This document shows, piece after piece, positions 2,064-17,361 of a stretch of DNA of 21,601 bases (its first letter is position 1; each line of letters opens with the position of its first letter). A model generated the notes under the pieces. The model ran no database searches, had not been told where the DNA came from, and worked only from the letters and a program-made list of their open reading frames with translations. This DNA comes from a virus: IMG/VR virus record IMGVR_UViG_3300027784_000063, positions 1 to 21,601 of that record, one strand, 5' to 3'. A program made the translations under genes and the position numbers.

Positions 2064-2900
2064 ATGGGTAAATTAATAGTTCGTGATGATTTAGCAGAAC
2101 CAATGAAAGCGAAGACGGTTCTGGATGAAGTTTATCTTGTTACAAGAGATAACTACAATTTAAGAGAAGCATGTAGAACGGTACAAACTGGAGATTCACT
2201 GCAAGTTGAAGTACCAGTGATAACTGATACCGTATCTGGGCAAATGAATGTTCCAGAGTTAGAGGAAGCAGAGATTTCTAGTGAAGCATATGACTATATA
2301 CGAAGCAGACTTCATAAGAATGTCGTACACGTTGCTTTGTCACACGAATCACAAATGGAATCAATGATGGACATCATGACAATGAACGTCCAAGATGCTG
2401 GTCGTGAGATAGCAAGGATGGAAAACGAAGAGATTGCAACTGAAATGGAAGGTTTCACAAACACTTGGGATGTAAGTACTGAGAATGATGAGTGGGATGC
2501 TGATGAACCTGGTGACCCGTTTTATGACATAATGGAAGTTGCAAGGGAAATACGTGAAGAGAATTACGAACCCAACCAATTGTGGTTAGCAACTGATGCA
2601 TACTCTGCATTACTATCTAACGAACACGTCATGGAGAGGATGCAAAGAGGTGCAACAGCTGATGGGACCATAAATACAATTGCAGGATTCGAAATCAGAA
2701 CTGACCATATGATACCGTCTGGTGAAGGATATATGTTGGACAGTACAGCGCCAGCGATGATGTTCTTTGACGGTCCTGAGTGGGTACGTGAATACAGAGA
2801 CGAAATTGCGTTCTTCGATGGTTACGTGATTGCTGACTTCCTTGGAATACAGAAAGTTAATGAAGATGCCGCATATAGGTTATATAACATAACCGAGTAA
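2064..2900 (+). CDS. major capsid protein, HK97 fold
   Basis: The protein has 278 residues and forms the icosahedral shell. Residues about 1-40 are an N-terminal arm without a cleavable delta domain. About 95-130 is a long helix matching the HK97 spine helix. Then come the P domain and an A domain containing LWLATDAYSALL (173-184), the TINTIAGFEIRTD stretch (202-214) and a C-terminal FDGYVIADFLGIQ strand. This C-terminal order is typical of HK97-type capsid proteins of archaeal and bacterial tailed viruses. GAGGTGATGAATAATG gives a strong start. The gene is followed at once by the conserved terminator at 2898, which should separate its high expression from the downstream connector genes. Confidence 0.85.
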   Translation: MGKLIVRDDLAEPMKAKTVLDEVYLVTRDNYNLREACRTVQTGDSLQVEVPVITDTVSGQMNVPELEEAEISSEAYDYIRSRLHKNVVHVALSHESQMESMMDIMTMNVQDAGREIARMENEEIATEMEGFTNTWDVSTENDEWDADEPGDPFYDIMEVAREIREENYEPNQLWLATDAYSALLSNEHVMERMQRGATADGTINTIAGFEIRTDHMIPSGEGYMLDSTAPAMMFFDGPEWVREYRDEIAFFDGYVIADFLGIQKVNEDAAYRLYNITE

Positions 2901-2922
2901 AACCCCTTTTCTTTTTATTTAT
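2898..2922 (+). terminator. pyrimidine-rich archaeal terminator, copy 2
   Basis: The stop codon TAA of the capsid gene runs into AAAACCCC, TTTTCTTTTT and ATTTAT. It aligns almost base for base with the element after the tail tube gene (7204-7228). Termination is likely partial, because the next gene starts only 14 bases later with its own ribosome-binding site. CCTTT at 2905-2909 could also pair weakly with AAAGG at 2924-2928. Confidence 0.6.
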
Positions 2923-2935
2923 AAAGGAGGTTCGC

Positions 2936-3322
2936 ATGACAGTTTCCCCGCAGGATGTAAGGGCTGCGCTAAATGAAATGAGTGAGGAAGAGCTTGCGGA
3001 CTCGACGATAGATTTAAAATTGAAAGATGCGCGATTTAGAGCTAAGAAACTTGGGTTAGATGAAGGAACACCTGAGTGGGAAAGATTTGTAAGAGCGAAA
3101 GCAGCATTAGGTTCATTTATTATATCTAACACTTATCAACGTACTGATTTTGGTGACATTGCTGTCACTAGAGAATGGGAAAGAATTGTTGATGAATTAG
3201 AGAACGAAATGGAGGAAGCATTAGAAGAAGCAGGAATTTATGATTATTATGTGACATCTACACCTATGTTTGATAGTAGACCGAAGGATAAAGATAGAGA
3301 ATCGGAATTAGTAAGCAGGTAG
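2936..3322 (+). CDS. head-tail connector (gp6/gp15-like adaptor)
   Basis: The protein has 128 residues and is mostly helical. It begins with VRAALNEMSEEELADSTID, then helices carrying KDARFRAKKLG and RAKAALGSFII. This order (short helix, 'ee-l-D' turn, long helix, small-residue-rich helix) is the layout of HK97 gp6 / SPP1 gp15-type adaptors, which sit on the portal ring under the head. The C-terminal part (about 75-128) is acidic and probably extended. The ribosome-binding site AAAGGAGG is the best in the window. The gene follows the capsid terminator, and its stop codon is buried in the first A5-loop hairpin. Confidence 0.7.
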   Translation: MTVSPQDVRAALNEMSEEELADSTIDLKLKDARFRAKKLGLDEGTPEWERFVRAKAALGSFIISNTYQRTDFGDIAVTREWERIVDELENEMEEALEEAGIYDYYVTSTPMFDSRPKDKDRESELVSR

Positions 3323-3336
3323 TGGAAAAACCACTA
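3320..3336 (+). other. A5-loop hairpin 1 (first of upstream pair)
   Basis: TAGTGG (3320-3325), loop AAAAA, CCACTA (3331-3336): 6 Watson-Crick pairs, extendable by a G-U pair. The stop codon of the connector gene is the 5' arm. Thirteen bases separate it from hairpin 2. Confidence 0.6.
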
Positions 3337-3349
3337 TATGTGTAAGTTA

Positions 3350-3362
3350 ACGGAAAAACCGT
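3350..3362 (+). other. A5-loop hairpin 2 overlapping a ribosome-binding site
   Basis: ACGG (3350-3353), loop AAAAA, CCGT (3359-3362): 4 pairs. Its 3' arm contains the first bases of GTGAT (3361-3365), the likely ribosome-binding site of the gene starting at 3370, so folding could reduce initiation. Same loop and closing G-C as hairpin 1, different stem. Confidence 0.55.
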
Positions 3363-3369
3363 GATATAT

Positions 3370-3951
3370 ATGGGAGAGATAGTAGATTTAGGAATTGGAT
3401 TCGAACCTGTTGATGTAGATAGTGATCTTCCGGCAAAGAAGGTTACTGGAATTAATGATGATTTTTCTAAAGTTTTTATTGAAGAATTGGCTAAAAAAAT
3501 TATTAGATATGCTAAAAAGCAAATAGAGACTGAGGGTTCAAGCCCGAAGGAAATGGCTTGGGATCCATTAAGACGAAATACTTTAGAAATTAAGGAACAA
3601 AGAGGATATGGCGATAAAGGTATGTTGGAAGAGTCCGGTAGGTTAAAAGACTCTTTAGATTGGCGCTGGGAAGGTGATGATACTATTTTAGTTGGGTGTA
3701 TTAATGATCCTCCAATTTATGCTGCTATTCAAGAATATGGAACGATAGAATCACCATGGACAATCCGAGTGACAGACGATATGCAAGGATATTTAAAGAA
3801 AACATATAATGTTAGACCGCCAAGAGAACCATACCTTCGGATTCCAGCTAGACCGTTTTTTAGACCAGCAGTAGAGTATGTACAACGAGATCCTGATATG
3901 CAAGATGCTGAATTAGAAGCGTTTGCAAGAACCGGAGGTCCTTATGAGTAA
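3370..3951 (+). CDS. tail-completion / neck protein, HK97 gp10 - Mu gpG type
   Basis: The protein has 193 residues from ATG 3370. A GTG 9 bases earlier is open, but its GTGAT is better read as the ribosome-binding site. A helical start (residues about 30-55) is followed by W-x-PL-x-x-x-T, a K-x-x-x-G-x-G region and a 'L-E-E-S-G-R-L-K-D-S-L' segment. Then come a beta part with YAAIQEYGT and the typical IPARPFFRPAVEY near the C-terminus. The 'G-L-x-x-S', 'YA-x-x-x-x-G' and 'IPARPF' order is diagnostic for gp10/virion-morphogenesis proteins, which close the neck and join the tail. The tandem A5-loop hairpins sit in its leader. Confidence 0.75.
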   Translation: MGEIVDLGIGFEPVDVDSDLPAKKVTGINDDFSKVFIEELAKKIIRYAKKQIETEGSSPKEMAWDPLRRNTLEIKEQRGYGDKGMLEESGRLKDSLDWRWEGDDTILVGCINDPPIYAAIQEYGTIESPWTIRVTDDMQGYLKKTYNVRPPREPYLRIPARPFFRPAVEYVQRDPDMQDAELEAFARTGGPYE

Positions 3952-5241: not shown

Positions 5242-5559
5242 ATGGTTAAATATAAAATCGTAGGCTTAGGTAATGTTTCCATGGGTTCAATTAGGTTAGA
5301 AAGGGGAGAGAAACAAATTATTGAGGATCCTGGTGATAATCTCATGGATAATATTGAAAGAGCCTCAAATTTAGGTTTAGTTGAAGTAACTAAATTAGAA
5401 AAGACAGAGATGACTACATTTAAGGAAAACAGTGAAGATGAGGAAGAGTCCGAGGTGGAAGATGATGAAACTGAGGAAGATGAAACGTATTATTGCCCAG
5501 AATGCGATAGGGAACATAGGTATGATTCCCAAATTGGGCAGGAACATTTAGAGGATTGA
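5242..5559 (+). CDS. small acidic protein with C-terminal zinc finger
   Basis: The protein has 105 residues. ATG 5242 follows the upstream stop by one base, with AAGGTGG as ribosome-binding site. Residues 1-50 are beta-rich (KYKIVGLGNVSMGSIRLERG). A run of almost pure Glu/Asp occupies about 60-82. The end reads YYCPECDREH and continues to a final EHLED: a C-x2-C-x3-H-x9-H arrangement typical of a classical zinc finger. The place between terminator and sheath matches small linker or adaptor genes in other contractile-tail viruses. No family was recognised; the zinc finger could mediate protein-protein contact in the virion or bind nucleic acid. Confidence 0.7.
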   Translation: MVKYKIVGLGNVSMGSIRLERGEKQIIEDPGDNLMDNIERASNLGLVEVTKLEKTEMTTFKENSEDEEESEVEDDETEEDETYYCPECDREHRYDSQIGQEHLED

Positions 5560-5565
5560 TAAATT

Positions 5566-6660
5566 ATGCCAAGGAAAATTGTAGATATAACAACGGATAT
5601 TGTAATTACACCTAGGGATGTTGCATACCCTAGAGATTTAGTGATACTAGGACTTGACGGTGCAGAGTTTCCTGAGGACGAAGACAAGATTATAGAGTTA
5701 TCAGATAGTGATGAAATCGAGAATGCGGACCTTGAAGACTGGTTTGAAGATGAATTAAAAGGTGCATTAGAACAAGGGATAAGCAGAGTATTTGCTATAC
5801 CAGTAGAGTACGATACAACCGAGGAAACGGATGATATTGGTGAACAAGTTGATTGGGATACTATTGAGGAGCAAATATCTTCGCAACCGACAATTGCACA
5901 TACCGGTATTGCTGATGATGGTCTTTCAGGTGTTGATGACATAGACGATGTGTATAGTACATTACATACCGAACTATTGCAGAATGGTCTTAGTGCAGTA
6001 ACAGTATGGCCAGTAGATGATACAGGCGATGATGCAGATACGACTGTTGGAGACGTATCTTCAAGTAGAATAATGACCGTCGCACATAAATTCGATGACG
6101 ATTATGCAAAGGATAGATTAGTAGGTGCAATGAATGCAGCAGCACTTAAAGTACCACGTTGGGATAAACTGATGTGGAAAAAAGTGATGTTCGATATGAC
6201 TGACGAAGATTTTGATATGCCAGATAGATTTACCACAAGTAGGATAAACGATTTAGAAGACGATAACATAAACGTATTGATGTATCGTGACGGTGATTTC
6301 GTGTTTAGTAACGGTTTAGCGTTAGCTGATGATGACATATATAAATACATTGATGTTATAAGAACACAAGATTACATCGAGTCAGAGATTGAAAGACAAC
6401 TGGCTAACAGAATCGGTGGTGGAAGAGTACCATTCACAAGTGAAGGTATTGGAATGATAGAGAACAGGTTACTTTCAGTACTATCAGATTTGACTGACGA
6501 GGATATTATAGTAACTGGTGGATACAGAGTTGATATGCCAACAATGAATGATGTTACAGCCGATGACAAAGTAGACAGATTGCTTAAAGGTATAGAAATC
6601 GAATGTCGACTACAGGGTCATATCCAAGAGATTAAAATAGATATGACATTAAAAATATAG
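5566..6660 (+). CDS. contractile tail sheath protein
   Basis: The protein has 364 residues. The C-terminal half shows the sheath signature in order: NINVLMYRDGDFVFSNGLAL, YKYIDVIRTQDYIESEIERQ, a GGGRVPFTSEGIGMIENRLL stretch, a TGGYRVDMP segment and the final strand pair ending IQEIKIDMTLKI. The N-terminal half carries an acidic domain that likely faces outward. The sheath surrounds the tube and shortens on infection, driving the tube through the cell envelope; this gene is what makes the virus a myovirus. At 364 residues it is a compact, minimal sheath. The ATG is 6 bases after the upstream stop. The tube gene follows 12 bases later, the usual sheath-tube order. Confidence 0.85.
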   Translation: MPRKIVDITTDIVITPRDVAYPRDLVILGLDGAEFPEDEDKIIELSDSDEIENADLEDWFEDELKGALEQGISRVFAIPVEYDTTEETDDIGEQVDWDTIEEQISSQPTIAHTGIADDGLSGVDDIDDVYSTLHTELLQNGLSAVTVWPVDDTGDDADTTVGDVSSSRIMTVAHKFDDDYAKDRLVGAMNAAALKVPRWDKLMWKKVMFDMTDEDFDMPDRFTTSRINDLEDDNINVLMYRDGDFVFSNGLALADDDIYKYIDVIRTQDYIESEIERQLANRIGGGRVPFTSEGIGMIENRLLSVLSDLTDEDIIVTGGYRVDMPTMNDVTADDKVDRLLKGIEIECRLQGHIQEIKIDMTLKI

Positions 6661-6672
6661 AGGTGATAGATT

Positions 6673-7203
6673 ATGCCACATGGACGTGAAAAGGTTTATA
6701 ATGTTGAACACGTTGATTTCATCATTGAACTAGATGACGAAGACGTTAGTGAATTTGATCCTGAAATACAGGAACGATTTGATGGTGGTGAACTAACCAT
6801 TGAAGGTATTTCAGACTCAGGGTTTGGTGTTACACCAACTGCAGAAACAGAAATGATTGAAGGACTTAAAGGTTATGAAGGATTTTCAGTTGATCCTGGT
6901 AATGGTGCAGAAATTGACTTAGCGGTGAAAAGTACAAGTTTATCTTTACCTGTACTACAAGCAATTTACAATAAGCAGCAAGATGAAGTAATTGCACCAT
7001 TTAAGGTAAGAATTGAAGTCAACCAAAGTGATATACGACCTGCATTCGGATTTAACAACATAGAAGTCAAACATTGTCTTCTAGTGAATATGGCACCATT
7101 CGAAGTTGATGGACCAGAAGCACCGGATTGGGAATTCGAAATGGTAGGATATGGATTTATTATAGAGAATTACGATATCAGTCTATATACAGCTGACGAG
7201 TAA
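6673..7203 (+). CDS. tail tube protein
   Basis: The protein has 176 residues and forms the rigid inner tail tube. It is beta-rich and acidic, with an early FIIELDDEDVS segment, a variable loop region, and a C-terminal part in which long strands alternate (KVRIEVNQSDIRP, IEVKHCLLVNMAPFEVD, WEFEMVGYGFII). Size, strand pattern and position between sheath and assembly chaperone fit the T4 gp19-like / Mu gpM tube fold. Ribosome-binding site GAGGTGAT. Directly after its stop lies the same terminator sequence as after the major capsid gene, the other protein needed in many copies, which suggests a deliberate drop in downstream expression. Confidence 0.75.
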   Translation: MPHGREKVYNVEHVDFIIELDDEDVSEFDPEIQERFDGGELTIEGISDSGFGVTPTAETEMIEGLKGYEGFSVDPGNGAEIDLAVKSTSLSLPVLQAIYNKQQDEVIAPFKVRIEVNQSDIRPAFGFNNIEVKHCLLVNMAPFEVDGPEAPDWEFEMVGYGFIIENYDISLYTADE

Positions 7204-7228
7204 TTAAAACCCTTTCCTTTTATTTATT
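7204..7228 (+). terminator. pyrimidine-rich archaeal terminator, copy 3
   Basis: TTAAAACCC followed by TTTCCTTTTATTTATTAA begins right after the tail tube stop codon. It is nearly identical to the element after the capsid gene (one C and one T shorter). No hairpin precedes the U-rich tract, as expected for archaeal termination. Confidence 0.6.
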
Positions 7229-7229
7229 A

Positions 7230-7244
7230 ACGCGAAAAACGCGT
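7230..7244 (+). other. A5-loop hairpin 3 (first of downstream pair)
   Basis: ACGCG (7230-7234), loop AAAAA, CGCGT (7240-7244): 5 Watson-Crick pairs. It comes immediately after the terminator tract and 11 bases before hairpin 4. Confidence 0.6.
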
Positions 7245-7255
7245 GAAATAAACTT

Positions 7256-7268
7256 TCCGAAAAACGGA
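7256..7268 (+). other. A5-loop hairpin 4 overlapping a ribosome-binding site
   Basis: TCCG (7256-7259), loop AAAAA, CGGA (7265-7268): 4 pairs, extendable by two T-G pairs to 7254/7270. The 3' arm takes in the first half of GGAGGTG (7266-7272), the ribosome-binding site of the chaperone gene at 7279. Confidence 0.55.
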
Positions 7269-7278
7269 GGTGTAAATT

Positions 7279-7587
7279 ATGGAAGAAAAGTATGAAGAAG
7301 CGTTGTATGTAAGTGACGAACCAACTAGTGTCGAGATAAATGGTGTAGAAGTTAAAGTAGAGGAAATGACTGGAATGAGATATTCCGAAATTGCCGATGA
7401 AATGGGTCTTGAACCAGGCAAAGAAAGTGCTTTTGATAACACAGCTTTTATGAAAAGGTTAATTGAAGAATGTGTTATTGAACCTGAAGATTTAGATCCA
7501 TCAAGATTAAGAATCGACGCTATGATAAAGATAACCACTGAAATACAACAAGGTATGAATTTAGAAGAGGAAGTAGAAAATTTGTAA
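7279..7587 (+). CDS. tail assembly chaperone, short form (gpG-like)
   Basis: The 102-residue product of the zero frame is acidic and mainly helical after an N-terminal beta part (about 15-32, VEINGVEVKVEEMTGMRYSE). Its size and place between tail tube and tape measure are those of the lambda gpG-type chaperone, which coats the tape measure protein while the tube polymerises and is absent from the finished virion. ATG 7279 follows GGAGGTG by 6 bases. The last sense codons are AAT TTG, then TAA TAA. They form the heptamer A AAT TTG at 7578-7584, so a fraction of ribosomes is expected to slip back one base and make the long form. Confidence 0.75.
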   Translation: MEEKYEEALYVSDEPTSVEINGVEVKVEEMTGMRYSEIADEMGLEPGKESAFDNTAFMKRLIEECVIEPEDLDPSRLRIDAMIKITTEIQQGMNLEEEVENL

Positions 7588-7853
7588 TAAAGGTTGAACG
7601 GGAATTTCCATTCTTTTTGATAGGCAAAGAATTCGGTATACCAGTGGACGTAGTAAAATCTTGGAAGATGCGTAAGATTAAGGAATATGCTACCTTTCTT
7701 GAGAAATACTATAAACAAAAATACGGAACTAGTGAAGATATGGATATTCCAGATGTTAGTACGTCTAGAATGCCAAGAATGGGAAGAAAACATTTACCAA
7801 GTAGTATGAGAAAAGGAAGAGGAGCATCGGGCCATAGCTTTAAATTTGCATAG
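7279..7853 (+). CDS. tail assembly chaperone, frameshifted long form (gpGT-like)
   Basis: Joining 7279-7584 to 7584-7853 by a -1 shift on AAATTTG gives about 191 residues. The downstream frame is open from the slip site: VIKVEREFPFFLIGKEFG continues through a Trp- and Lys-rich helical region (VKSWKMRKIKEYATFLEKYY) to a basic, Ser/Gly/Arg-rich tail ending HSFKFA. It has no ATG near its beginning and no ribosome-binding site, so independent translation is unlikely. Known G/GT pairs show exactly this: an acidic G part and a longer T part that binds the tape measure protein. The basic tail contrasts with the acidic proteins around it. The shift is inferred from sequence. Confidence 0.7.
7578..7584 (+). 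other. -1 ribosomal frameshift heptamer AAATTTG
   Basis: In the zero frame the bases read A AAT TTG, fitting the X XXY YYZ rule; both tRNAs can re-pair as AAA TTT after slipping back. The zero-frame stop follows immediately (TAA, then a second in-frame-adjacent TAA), and the -1 frame stays open to 7851. I see no strong stem or pseudoknot in the next 40 bases; the stop codon itself may stimulate slippage. Confidence 0.65.
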
Positions 7854-7863
7854 GAGATAATAA

Positions 7864-10800
7864 ATGGCTTTAGTTCACCAATTAACAGCAGCCCTTGATT
7901 TCACAGGTGTTGTAGAAGCAAAAAGTAAGATGACAAGCTTAGAGCAAACTATCGCCAATAATGCCGGTGAAATCAGAAAATCTTTCCTTTTTATGTCATT
8001 CGGTATGATGGCAGCTAATCAAGTTTTAAAAAAGTTTGTTAGTAGATTAGAAATGGCTGCCCAGTCAATGCGACAGGCTTTTATAGATATTGAACATCAA
8101 GCAGTTGTAGTTTCTACTATTTTAACAGGTACCGCTGAAGATGTTGGTGTAGTTACAGAAAGAATGATACAGTTGGGAAGAGAAACTGAATGGACTGCAT
8201 ATGATGTTGGGCTTGCAATGGAAGATTTAGCACGTGCAGGATTTACTACAACTGAGGCTATTCAATCAGTCGGTGTTGCATTACAATTTGCTACTGCAAC
8301 TGGTATGCAGACTTCGCAAGCCGCTGATATACTTACTGGTTCCATTCGTGGATTCAATATGCAGGCTGACTACATGGAAACGCAAATCGGTGATGCGTCT
8401 GGCGAACTTGAAACATTTACAATGCATGCTAGTGAAGCTGAAGCTACAACGACTGCAGCAGGTCATGCCGCATCTGTTTTCGCAGCTGGTGCTATGAATG
8501 CAAGGTTACATGCAGAAGATCTTGGTGAAGGATTTAAATATGCTGGTGCTGCTGCTGAAGCTTTAAATTGGAGAATGACAGAAGTCGTTGCGACGATGAT
8601 GAGTGCTGCAGATAATATGGTTAGGGCTGGTATGGCTGGTCGTGGATTTAGAAGAATGGCAACCCGTCTAGCTAGAGCCGCAGGTGAAGCATCTACAGGT
8701 ATAGAACAATTGGCTGGTGAACTTGAAGATTTAGGTGTTGAGTTAGTCGACCATCAAGGTGAGATGAGAGGTCTTTTTGATATATTAATTGATTTAGAAG
8801 AAGCAACTGAAGACATGACGGCACAGCAGCAGGCCAATTTATACCAGATGATTGCTGGTACACGTGGTATGACGATGCTTGCTGGTGTTATGAGTGATGG
8901 AACAGACCAATTGAAAGAACACGCAATGATGCTTGAAATTTCATCTTCAAGAAATGAATTGGCTGCTGCTGGTTATGCTGATTCCGCTGAAATCATGAGG
9001 GATTTAGGTAAAGAATATTTTGAAGCTACAGAAGGAATGGAACATGCTAATATTAAATTAGAGGAATTTACTGAGTTAAATCCTGCTTCTCAAGAACAAA
9101 TCAGACGTACAATGCAATATCTTGATGATTTGAATTTAACACAAGATGAATATGCTGCTGCATTAGAGAATTCTGCAGAGTTAACTGAAGTACAAATGGA
9201 AAGATTGCAAACCTTACAAGGTGCAACAGATTTAATGACTTCGTCTTTAGAAGCGATGTGGTTCCAAATTGCGCATCAGGTCGCGCCTATGATGAAGTCG
9301 TGGGAAAGAACAGTTAGACTTGTTGCCGATATCATTACGTTGTTGCCGGATCATTTACAGATGCTTATAGGATTCTTAATTTTAACTGGAGCCGCATTAG
9401 GTGGTGTAATAACATCACTAATACAAGTTACAGCTATGCTTGTGATGACTGGTGCTGCGATGGCAACTTATTCTGTTGAAATCCAAAAAACTACAGTTAA
9501 TCAAGAGATGTTTAATATTGCATATCAATCATTCATAAAAATGTTAAAATTATCGTTACCGTTACTTAAACAACTAGTTGTCAAAGTAGGAATGTTAGCC
9601 GGACAAATGGTAATGATGACTGGAGGTATTGCATTACTTGTCAGAGCATGGGATGAAGGCGAACCTATATTGTATGCAGCTGGTATTATCGTAATGGGAC
9701 TTGCTTATGCCTTAGGGTTTTTAAGGGTGCGAATGGGACAAAATATTGTAGCAGCTGGAAAAAACGCGAAGGCAATTACTGCTTTGACATCTGCAAAGGA
9801 AATAGAAAATAAAGCAACGCATAAACAATTACTACATTATGGTAAATTATTTAAAGCACGTGAAGCAACATTACAACAAAGAAAAAGAGAAACAATAAGT
9901 GAATTGGAGTTTGCAAAAGCAAATAATGTCGTTACAACACAAAGGATATGGGAAAGAAAAGTAAAAGAATCGCATTTGGCCATTGATGAGGTTAGGAATA
10001 AACAAAGCGCTATGGAAAATAAATTATTGAGTGCTAAAACGAAAAAATTAATGAGTTATACTTCTACACAAGCGGGTGCCAACAAATTAGAAGCCGCGGG
10101 TATAACGCTAAAAGAAATACATAATTCAAGGGTTTTATCTTTAGCATTTTCATATAGTGCGTTAGCAATTGCAGTCGCTGCTGCGTTAGGAGGCTTATTC
10201 TTGTTATACAAAGCTTATGAGGACGGTGATTATATCCTTGGTGTATTGGCAACATCGGTACTTGCATTTGCGGCAGCTGTTCATTTTGCAAGGGATTCTG
10301 TTAATGCATTCATAACAGCTCAATTAAAGAAAATTAAATCATCACTTGCAGATTTTGCTGCGAATAGTAAATTGATTGCGTCATTAAAAGGTTATATATT
10401 AGCTGCATTCGGTGCTAAATCCGCAACTGAAGGATTAACTTTTGCTAAATGGCAATATGCAGCAGCGGCGAGTGCTGCGTTAGGTATCATAGGTGTCTTG
10501 TGGTTGGTGTGGAATGAAAGTAGGGATGCAGCGATGGCGCTGGCAGCTGCAATAGTGGTGGTAACAGCAGTTATGTGGAAATTAAATATAGCAATGTGGG
10601 CAAATCCGATATTATTAGTTGTGGGCTTAATCGGTTTATTAATTATGGCATTGTATCGGTGGTGGGATACAATATCAAATTACGTGATGCCTGTTTTAGA
10701 ATATCTTTGGAACGTATTAAAAGGTTTACTTGCACCATTGTTACTTACTATAAGGCTTATATGGATGGGGGTTCAAAGATTAAGGCAATTTGTTGATAGT

Positions 10801-11649
10801 GCTGGTGGCGCAAGTGCAATTTTACAAAGATTATGGAATGTTTTAAAAGGATTATTCTTACCGTTAAGACTAGTAATTTGGGGAATACGAGAACTTATTG
10901 ATAGAGCTGGCGGAGCTAGTGCGATATTACAGAGAGTAGTACAAGTTCTTAGAATTATTTTTGCACCTCTTATATTAGTTGGAAAACTTATACAATGGGT
11001 AGTCGACAGACTAGGTGGATGGGGTGCTATACTAGGCTATATATATGAAGGTTTAAAATTCCTTTTATGGCCATTAATCGAACTCATAAAGCTTCTAGAA
11101 GAATTGGGTAGTAAATTCCCAATATTAGGTAAACTCGGGTCATTTGCTGAAATACTTGAGTACCTATCTGACCCAATGCAGGTTATAAAGGATTTAATTA
11201 ATGCAGTTGCTGATGCATTTGATAACTTACTAAGTAGAATTCCAAATGTACTTAGTGGATTATCAAGGATAGGCAGTGCTATAAGAAGTAGTGTATCAGG
11301 GGCATTCGAAAGTGCGGGCGAATCCTTAAGAAGTTTTGGCGGAAGAGTTATGAGCGCTTTAGGTCGTTCATGGATTGTTGACGCTTTTAGTTCCGGCATC
11401 GGGCAAATAACGGGAATGTTTGCAGGATTACAAGAAATGATGGGAATGCTTGGATTTGGTAACATAGGCCAGATTTCAACAGTACAAGCTGGCCCTGTGC
11501 AACCCACAAGTAGTATGCCAGGTGAGATAAACATAACTTTAAATACGACAATCGATGAAAGTATGAGTGCAGACGAACATGCTGAGTTAGTTGAAGATGC
11601 GGTTGAAAAAGCACTTTATCAATGGAATAGGGAGTTTAAGAAAACATGA
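7864..11649 (+). CDS. tape measure protein
   Basis: The protein has 1261 residues and is by far the longest gene. The N-terminal third is helical, with the Ala/Gly/Met-rich pattern of phage tape measures, including AGFTTTEAIQSVGVALQFAT and RGFRRMATRLARAAGEASTG, matching the conserved TMP core (residues about 65-290). From about 470 on there are many hydrophobic segments that could insert in a membrane during ejection. Two internal repeat families are present (9622-10590 and 10702-11120). The gene sets tail length; at about 0.15 nm per residue the tail would be near 190 nm (estimate). ATG follows GGAG by about 7 bases. The stop overlaps the next start as ATGA. Confidence 0.85.
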   Translation: MALVHQLTAALDFTGVVEAKSKMTSLEQTIANNAGEIRKSFLFMSFGMMAANQVLKKFVSRLEMAAQSMRQAFIDIEHQAVVVSTILTGTAEDVGVVTERMIQLGRETEWTAYDVGLAMEDLARAGFTTTEAIQSVGVALQFATATGMQTSQAADILTGSIRGFNMQADYMETQIGDASGELETFTMHASEAEATTTAAGHAASVFAAGAMNARLHAEDLGEGFKYAGAAAEALNWRMTEVVATMMSAADNMVRAGMAGRGFRRMATRLARAAGEASTGIEQLAGELEDLGVELVDHQGEMRGLFDILIDLEEATEDMTAQQQANLYQMIAGTRGMTMLAGVMSDGTDQLKEHAMMLEISSSRNELAAAGYADSAEIMRDLGKEYFEATEGMEHANIKLEEFTELNPASQEQIRRTMQYLDDLNLTQDEYAAALENSAELTEVQMERLQTLQGATDLMTSSLEAMWFQIAHQVAPMMKSWERTVRLVADIITLLPDHLQMLIGFLILTGAALGGVITSLIQVTAMLVMTGAAMATYSVEIQKTTVNQEMFNIAYQSFIKMLKLSLPLLKQLVVKVGMLAGQMVMMTGGIALLVRAWDEGEPILYAAGIIVMGLAYALGFLRVRMGQNIVAAGKNAKAITALTSAKEIENKATHKQLLHYGKLFKAREATLQQRKRETISELEFAKANNVVTTQRIWERKVKESHLAIDEVRNKQSAMENKLLSAKTKKLMSYTSTQAGANKLEAAGITLKEIHNSRVLSLAFSYSALAIAVAAALGGLFLLYKAYEDGDYILGVLATSVLAFAAAVHFARDSVNAFITAQLKKIKSSLADFAANSKLIASLKGYILAAFGAKSATEGLTFAKWQYAAAASAALGIIGVLWLVWNESRDAAMALAAAIVVVTAVMWKLNIAMWANPILLVVGLIGLLIMALYRWWDTISNYVMPVLEYLWNVLKGLLAPLLLTIRLIWMGVQRLRQFVDSAGGASAILQRLWNVLKGLFLPLRLVIWGIRELIDRAGGASAILQRVVQVLRIIFAPLILVGKLIQWVVDRLGGWGAILGYIYEGLKFLLWPLIELIKLLEELGSKFPILGKLGSFAEILEYLSDPMQVIKDLINAVADAFDNLLSRIPNVLSGLSRIGSAIRSSVSGAFESAGESLRSFGGRVMSALGRSWIVDAFSSGIGQITGMFAGLQEMMGMLGFGNIGQISTVQAGPVQPTSSMPGEINITLNTTIDESMSADEHAELVEDAVEKALYQWNREFKKT
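9622..10590 (+). repeat. three dispersed hydrophobic units in the tape measure
   Basis: Units begin near residues 587, 776 and 874 of the tape measure protein. They read GGIALLVRAWDEGEPIL, GGLFLLYKAYEDGDYIL and GVLWLVWNESRDAAMAL, each followed by a 20-residue Ala/Val/Leu-rich segment. The shared plan is hydrophobic strand, aromatic, acidic turn, hydrophobic helix. Confidence 0.45.
10702..11120 (+). repeat. four tandem 35-residue repeats in the tape measure
   Basis: Units start at residues about 947, 989, 1024 and 1059. The first two share WNVLKGL, and both end in AGGASAILQ. The third has VLRIIFAPLILV and LGGWGAILG; the fourth has EGLKFLLWPLIELI. Spacing is 42, 35 and 35 residues. Each is an amphipathic/hydrophobic helix pair closed by a Gly-rich turn. 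Confidence 0.6.
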
Positions 11650-17007: not shown

Positions 17008-17361
17008 ATGAAAACTTTAGAAATGACGGATGATTGGGATTTAAAAATGGAGGATAATAGTTTTTCTATAATTAAATATCCTGATAAAATAGGTCAAGAT
17101 ATTAAAATGATATTATATACTATTAAAGGTTCTAATAAATTTGATAGGGATATGGGTGTCGAGTGGATTCCAATTATAAGATACCCAACAGAAGGTAATA
17201 TTAAAAGAGGTATATTAGAAGCACTTCAATTTTATGATAGGCCTTTATTAGTTGATAAAATTGATGTACAAATGGACGACACTGAAAGAATTGCTTATGT
17301 TACTTTAGAAATTATTGTTGATGATGAAAATTATGAAATTGAGCTGACTATTGGTGATTAA
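17008..17361 (+). CDS. baseplate wedge protein, gp25/gpW-like
   Basis: The protein has 117 residues. It follows the plan of T4 gp25-like wedge proteins: an N-terminal strand pair with DWDLKMEDNSF, a helix in KIGQDIKMILYTIKG, the 'D-R-D-M-G-V-E-W-I-P-I' segment, helix IKRGILEALQFYDR, and C-terminal strands VDKIDVQMDDTERIAYV and ENYEIELTIGD. These proteins bind the sheath initiation ring at the baseplate. It is the first gene after the 16961 promoter, and the gpJ-like partner starts 2 bases after its stop, the normal W-J pair of contractile tails. Confidence 0.75.
   Translation: MKTLEMTDDWDLKMEDNSFSIIKYPDKIGQDIKMILYTIKGSNKFDRDMGVEWIPIIRYPTEGNIKRGILEALQFYDRPLLVDKIDVQMDDTERIAYVTLEIIVDDENYEIELTIGD

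Follow-up and report, generated by a model that had tools for sequence, protein, structure and literature searches.

Introduction

The T4 protein gp43 represses its own synthesis through a hairpin near the ribosome-binding site whose loop reads UAAC or UAAA; the AC and AA at the 3' side of the loop are important in this operator, and in RB49 the loop is UAAA (PMC3014915). In single-stranded RNA phages, the coat protein binds a hairpin at the replicase start and represses this downstream gene (PMC3561173). In the boxB hairpin of P22, with the loop GACAA, the middle base is turned out and contacted by the N peptide, and UMAC loops adopt the same fold (PMC12550061).

The hairpins described here, found in a group of uncultivated tailed DNA viruses that probably infect archaea, resemble each of these systems in part. 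Like the gp43 operator of T4 and RB69, they are small hairpins in the leader of a tailed-virus mRNA, close to its ribosome-binding site, with an A-rich loop ending in AC (24 of 30 distinct copies) or AA (6 of 30). The gp43 operator, however, has a tetraloop, makes extra contacts overlapping the ribosome-binding site and is a single site on its own gene, whereas the present element has a pentaloop, AANAC or AANAA, often occurs in tandem and lies on the neck and tail chaperone genes instead of the polymerase gene. At the start of the family B polymerase gene, examined in two large relatives, no such hairpin was listed. With the MS2/PRR1-type operator it shares a hairpin at a start codon, which there represses a downstream gene in response to virion protein and here may act as a repressor site; that operator, in contrast, belongs to RNA phages and needs a loop adenine and an unpaired stem purine, whereas the stems listed here, from a search that covered unbulged stems, are unbulged, of 4-8 bp, and carry a 5-nt loop. 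The boxB sites of lambda and P22 likewise combine a short stem with a conserved pentaloop in which one base is free (outward in P22), but their loop is GANAA, they act in anti-termination through an arginine-rich N-like protein and they occupy another place in the operon; all 30 distinct copies of the present element have A[AG]NA[CA] loops. CsrA needs GGA in the loop, and the sites of CsrA/RsmA and T4 RegA resemble ours in lying near the Shine-Dalgarno sequence or start of the regulated mRNAs; 28 of our 30 loops are without GGA, AGGAC in two relatives (L048 and L045) being the exception. RegA sites are without secondary structure (PMC3014915). As far as sequence comparison can tell, where the element lies, how restricted its loop is and how its stem covaries all fit the class of protein-bound translational operators.

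Results

A structural gene module of a contractile-tailed virus

The window, by which we mean the whole stretch of DNA analyzed, is a complete IMG/VR record of 21.6 kb and probably a piece of a larger genome. It contains the structural module of a contractile-tailed virus, with genes in the order capsid, connector-like, neck (Phage_tail_S), sheath, tube, tail chaperone, tape measure and baseplate J (Table 1). The connector-like gene is without a family match, and the gene behind the first hairpin pair, called gp10-like in the initial annotation, turns out to encode a neck or tail-completion protein. Upstream of the structural genes, at 192-214, a strong hairpin followed by TTTTCTT resembles a terminator.

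Sheath and capsid match the haloarchaeal viruses ChaoS9, phiH and HGTV-1 weakly. Larger relatives encode a family B DNA polymerase, one of them also an ERCC4-HHH nuclease, and the capsid of another matches a Methanomicrobiales virus. Taken together, these similarities make archaea the most likely hosts of the group. Capsid and sheath alignments against one genome per species from 84,980 cellular species yielded no provirus. One large relative (L028 13353-18656, minus strand, and L029 3743-7099) carries QueC, QueE-like and FolE2 genes, a set belonging to the 7-deazaguanine pathway and perhaps serving DNA modification; its polymerase gene contains a LAGLIDADG-like stretch, a possible intein.

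In each of 13 chaperone genes compared (window, L004, L006, L007, L008, L009, L010, L012, L019, L043, L046, L048 and L055), a -1 slippery heptamer of the type A AAA AAC, A AAA AAG, A AAT TTG or A AAT TTT lies 3-66 nt before the end of ORF 1, with an open -1 frame behind it. Judged by heptamer and overlap, this is a predicted programmed frameshift of the G/GT type. Frameshifting has been reported for other archaeal viruses (PMC8211752).

Table 1. Genes, hairpins and T-rich tracts of the window (all on the plus strand)
Feature	Position	Strand	Basis or remark
Major capsid protein gene	2064..2900	+	PHROG major head protein, E 5e-10
Pyrimidine/T-rich tract CCCCTTTTCTTTTTATTTA after capsid gene	2903..2921	+	candidate archaeal terminator
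Connector-like gene, upstream of hairpins N1 and N2	2936..3322	+	position and sequence kept in 9 relatives (tblastn)
Hairpin N1, TAGTGG-AAAAA-CCACTA	3320..3336	+	5' arm holds the TAG stop (3320-3322) of the upstream connector-like gene
Hairpin N2, ACGG-AAAAA-CCGT	3350..3362	+	touches possible neck GTG start at 3361
Neck / tail-completion gene	3361..3951 (start GTG 3361 or ATG 3370)	+	PHROG Neck1, E 3e-10; Pfam Phage_tail_S
Tail sheath gene	5566..6660	+	PHROG tail sheath, E 5e-22; tblastn to ChaoS9 and phiH sheath
Tail tube gene (probable)	6673..7203	+	follows sheath gene; alignment; weak PHROG virion structural protein
Pyrimidine/T-rich tract AAAACCCTTTCCTTTTATTTATT after tube gene	7206..7228	+	candidate archaeal terminator
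Hairpin C1, ACGCG-AAAAA-CGCGT	7230..7244	+	just 3' of the pyrimidine/T-rich tract
Hairpin C2, TCCG-AAAAA-CGGA	7256..7268	+	3' arm holds first bases of chaperone Shine-Dalgarno GGAGG
Tail assembly chaperone ORF 1	7279..7587	+	homologues in L004, L006 and L008; gene order; -1 overlap
-1 frame open stretch, C-terminal part of frameshifted chaperone	7542..7853	+	
-1 slippery heptamer A AAT TTG near end of chaperone ORF 1	7578..7584	+	like heptamers in all 13 viruses checked
Tape measure protein gene	7864..11649	+	profile matches including PHROG and Pfam

Four hairpins in two leaders

The initial annotation had pointed to four GAAAAAC-capped hairpins in two pairs, and all four were recovered, with gaps of 13 and 11 nt within the pairs. 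By itself GAAAAAC is near expectation in the window (8 seen versus 4.9 expected). The comparison with shuffled sequence that the annotation had proposed bears the hairpins out: GAAAAAC-capped stems of at least 4 bp occur four times on the sense strand and once, weakly, on the antisense strand, versus a mean of 0.09 per shuffled genome, and tandem pairs appeared in none of 400 shuffles. Both leaders also fold better than shuffled sequence (z of -3.4 and of -2.0 to -2.4). To the three other GAAAAAC sites listed at first, which stand, a fourth has to be added, on the minus strand at 17060, with 4 complementary flanking bases; its flanking pairs are AT-rich and it lies inside a gene. The proposed overlap of the second hairpin of each pair with the ribosome-binding site applies to C2, but not to N2, which is without a Shine-Dalgarno sequence and precedes ATG 3370 shortly. 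None of the four is followed on its 3' side by a T run, the T tracts lying upstream, and a bacterial intrinsic terminator, a GC-rich stem directly followed by a T run, was rejected for them.

The same two junctions carry the element in relatives

Hairpins capped by AAAAC, AACAC, AAGAC or AAAAA recur in relatives at the same two intercistronic regions, from connector to neck gene and from tail tube to tail chaperone gene, with covarying stems. Loss of stem pairing at these junctions in relatives was the other refuting condition set by the initial annotation, and the hairpins withstood both. The closest relative, L004, whose tube protein is 52% identical, has a single hairpin, ACGGG-AAAAC-CCCGT, at the tube-chaperone junction; capsid and sheath of further relatives are only about 23-40% identical. 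Tandem pairs are found in the window and a subset of viruses but not throughout the relatives. L009, like the window, has them at both junctions: AGGTGG-AAGAC-CCACTT, 11 nt and GAGG-AACAC-CCTC before the neck gene, and TGGG-AACAC-CCCA, 9 nt and GGATCG-AACAC-CGATCC before the chaperone gene.

A held-out set came from contigs of a later capsid-protein scan, made after the hypothesis, seven of which contain the neck and/or chaperone junction. Five of them (L043, L044, L046, L051 and L055) carry the element at the neck start, and two of these five, L046 and L055, carry it before the chaperone gene as well; the variant loop AGGAC occurs at the neck in L048 and L045. In L048, a long hairpin with an AATAA loop also stands behind the tube gene; a T run comes after it, and it is probably a terminator.

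With start codons inferred from sequence, an A[AG]NA[AC] hairpin was found at 14 of 15 neck starts and 9 of 13 chaperone starts (8 of 13 on a strict count that omits the AATAA hairpin of L048), compared with 1 of 219 other gene starts (p≈2e-26). AANAM loops (M being A or C) account for 29 of the 46 pentaloop hairpins in neck and chaperone start windows versus 18 of 828 elsewhere (p=4e-30). The same position test gave p=2e-20 in the discovery set and, with 10 of 20 versus 7 of 408, p=6e-11 in the held-out viruses, and the enrichment in odds at neck and chaperone starts is 57- to 100-fold. When loops are classed as XXNX, AANA is the sole enriched class (p=7e-28; next best 0.11). All these p-values overstate the number of independent events, because the viruses are related, and the chosen start positions inflate them further. 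L010 is without the element at either junction and L007 and L012 at the chaperone junction; no such hairpin was found at these junctions in phiH, ChaoS9, HGTV-1 and the methanogen virus vir524.

Similar hairpins were seen at a few further places. In L008 (about 7037-7053; G004 36651-36667), CATGGC-AAAAA-GCTATG surrounds what is likely to be the start codon of the gene preceding the sheath gene, and in L044 (4997-5013), TCCAAT-AAAAC-ATTGGA lies 25 nt before an ORF that is probably the sheath gene. L012 (3836-3850) and L046 (9067-9083), which have one copy at the neck start proper, carry a further AANAC hairpin within the connector gene, 161-175 nt upstream of the stop codon of that gene.

A restricted loop on a free stem

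Among 30 distinct copies, the loop has A at position 1 in 30, at position 2 in 28 and at position 4 in 30, and C (24) or A (6) at position 5, while position 3 is free (A13, C8, G7, T2). Thus 28 of the 30 loops read AANAC or AANAA, the other two being the AGGAC variants. The signal is therefore not the heptamer GAAAAAC, as had been thought at first, but the pentaloop A-A-N-A-(C/A), of which the AAAAA closed by G-C is the form seen in the window; in relatives, the closing pair is G-C, A-U, U-A or G-U, and the loops include AATAC. The free third base suggests by analogy that it may be turned outward, in a loop folded like GNRA or UMAC.

The stems, of 4-8 bp, are uninterrupted and free in sequence. 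Their covariation is 1.07, compared with 0.235±0.045 in shuffled alignments and at most 0.26 when slid; three hairpins that the automatic alignment had placed out of register were excluded from this test. Because the copies were selected in part by their inner four pairs, the clean controls are the position statistics at gene starts. These four inner pairs hold in every listed sequence, and all four Watson-Crick types occur at three of them.

When both strands of 542 kb were scanned with a small covariance model, 26 matches came out; every one is on the sense strand, and almost all fall at the two junctions. The E-values are weak (0.5-8), a consequence of the motif's short length of 17 positions. 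Likewise, all 19 strong AANA[AC] hairpins in nine viruses are on the sense strand, a bias that argues against a symmetrical DNA site. Where the loop falls within the chaperone N-terminus, it is read in different frames (GGG AAC ACC CCA in L009, GGA ACA CCC in L006), and the neck copies are mostly non-coding; conservation across differing codon frames points to an RNA signal, not a protein one. On these sequence grounds, we conclude that all these hairpins represent a single small cis-acting RNA element, made up of a 4-8-bp stem and an AANAC or AANAA pentaloop.

Hairpins, stop codons, start sites and T-rich tracts

The 3' arm of the hairpin carries the Shine-Dalgarno sequence in L046 and L048 (TGGAGG arm), in L012 and in C2 of the window. 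The start codon lies within the hairpin in L004 and probably also in L006 and in N2 of the window. First neck hairpins adjoin the upstream stop codon in the window, L009, L051 and L045 (offsets -1, -1 and 0 in the last three), and in these four viruses the second copy follows the stop by 24-28 nt; the second neck hairpins of L009, L051, L045 and L007 lie at +24 to +29 nt. At the chaperone junction, the hairpin lies 44±11 nt from the upstream stop versus -9±23 nt from the chaperone start (n=8). With the spacing to the upstream stop the tighter of the two, an intercistronic or processing element fits at least as well as occlusion of the start site. Some copies in L006, L009, L046, L055 and L019 lie wholly inside coding sequence. 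By its placement, the element is intercistronic and would act at the point where translation of one gene ends and that of the next begins.

The T-rich tracts behind the capsid and tube genes have near-identical counterparts (AAAACCCTTTCCTTTT type) behind the same two genes in the relative L001/L004 (L001, about 2338-2353 and 6533-6549); they are candidates for archaeal terminators or attenuators, each placed after the gene of an abundant virion protein. Such a tract follows the tube gene in the window, L004, L009, L046, L048 and L055 and precedes the neck hairpin in L006, L007, L043 and L044. It is absent at the neck junctions of the window, L009 and L055, and at junctions of L008, L012, L019 and L051.

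Searches for a described counterpart

Rfam 15 gave no match at gathering score in nine relatives and nothing at either window junction up to E=1, in agreement with the initial view that no named RNA element has this form. A literature search returned no description of such an element, and a survey of archaeal tailed viruses is without mention of hairpins. The pattern of a pyrimidine tract plus exact GAAAAAC gave three matches in viral contigs, dismissed as chance, as were three model matches in HRTV-5, all inside annotated coding genes (E 0.2-2.2). The element is a new cis-acting RNA family, and the mode of action that we propose for it belongs to a known class.

Discussion

In tailed viruses generally, capsid, sheath and tube are highly expressed, whereas the neck and chaperone genes are low-copy. 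A restricted loop on free stems is the mark that a specific RNA-binding protein would leave, and together with the position of the element it speaks for a translational operator that governs two assembly genes with low-copy products. With moderate confidence, we favor as the best explanation a protein-bound intercistronic operator that would restrict how often translation starts or restarts at the neck and chaperone genes. One putative protein, viral or host, would bind the pentaloop; the bound hairpin, which often holds or adjoins the Shine-Dalgarno sequence, the start codon or the preceding stop codon, would block initiation or coupled re-initiation downstream; and the low-copy neck and chaperone/tape-measure proteins would be made later, or in smaller amounts, than the capsid, sheath and tube proteins encoded in the same operon. 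A protein-binding translational operator or an RNA-processing site had been offered as alternatives at the outset; what survives of that proposal is an RNA recognition element, family-wide and at both junctions, in which GAAAAAC as such is not the signal, with the operator still the preferred reading.

Because T-rich tracts precede the hairpin at several junctions, processing or stabilization of the RNA is the main rival, though a somewhat unlikely one in our judgment. A nuclease would cleave the junction, or polymerase would pass a T-tract terminator, and the hairpin at the fresh 5' end, stable by itself or bound by protein, would shield the neck or chaperone/tape-measure message from 5'-to-3' decay, setting differing mRNA levels along the operon. 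The tighter spacing to the upstream stop at the chaperone junction speaks for it as well. Yet many junctions are without a T tract, some hairpins fall within the coding sequence on one side or the other, and a mere 5' blocker has no need of a fixed loop sequence.

Less probable again, and to be regarded as clearly unlikely, is an anti-termination site like lambda boxB, at which the hairpin would equip RNA polymerase with a factor for transcribing the long tail operon to its end. A short hairpin with a fixed pentaloop, one free base and a strict sense-strand occurrence would suit such a site, as would the T-rich terminator candidates in the same operons, and the free position 3 recalls P22 boxB (PMC12550061). 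Against this, the loop is AANAC, not the GANAA of lambda and P22, and the element lies at two internal junctions rather than at the operon start and touches Shine-Dalgarno sequences or start codons. It also lies 3' of the nearest T tract, and would thus be made only after that tract had been passed.

That the hairpins are plain mRNA structure hiding the Shine-Dalgarno sequence or start codon without any protein, the A-rich loop being merely stable or cheap, appears very improbable: in several viruses one or the other does lie within the stem, but several hairpins leave both single-stranded, and loop identity is too restricted, with AANA the only enriched class, on stems that are free. A chance or compositional product of A-rich late genes, to which the unremarkable frequency of GAAAAAC itself might have pointed, is practically negligible in the face of the shuffles, position statistics, covariation and strand result of the covariance model, and is refuted by replication in the held-out contigs.

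What might bind the pentaloop under the favored operator reading? The small protein encoded before the sheath gene (5242-5559) ends in a CxxC...H zinc-finger-like motif; in the homologues from other viruses, a SAP-like or a lysine-rich low-complexity tail takes the place of this motif. It was rejected as the binder, its C-terminal part not being conserved. The conserved early genes of the large relatives offered no RNA-binding candidate. The Arg/Lys-rich tail of the frameshifted chaperone in the window and L004 is a possible candidate by its composition; outside these two viruses the tail is not equally basic. A part for the hairpin in the frameshift signal was rejected because about 300 nt separate it from the slippery site.

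More tentatively, and with rather less confidence than we place in the operator itself, we propose that it is family-wide among these archaeal viruses and that a putative AANAC-binding viral protein coordinates neck and chaperone synthesis as a checkpoint of tail assembly. To our knowledge, post-transcriptional control in archaeal viruses has been little explored, and we know of no translational operator previously described in one. If true, the model would provide a new RNA-protein recognition pair and the first known translational operator of an archaeal virus. With a compact motif that comparison supports strongly, a defined loop and two defined targets, the binding protein could be fished out directly, and motif and protein might together provide a tethering pair of RNA and protein, possibly suited to archaeal hosts. 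It would also offer a handle on how tailed viruses balance the amounts of their virion components where many genes lie in a single operon.
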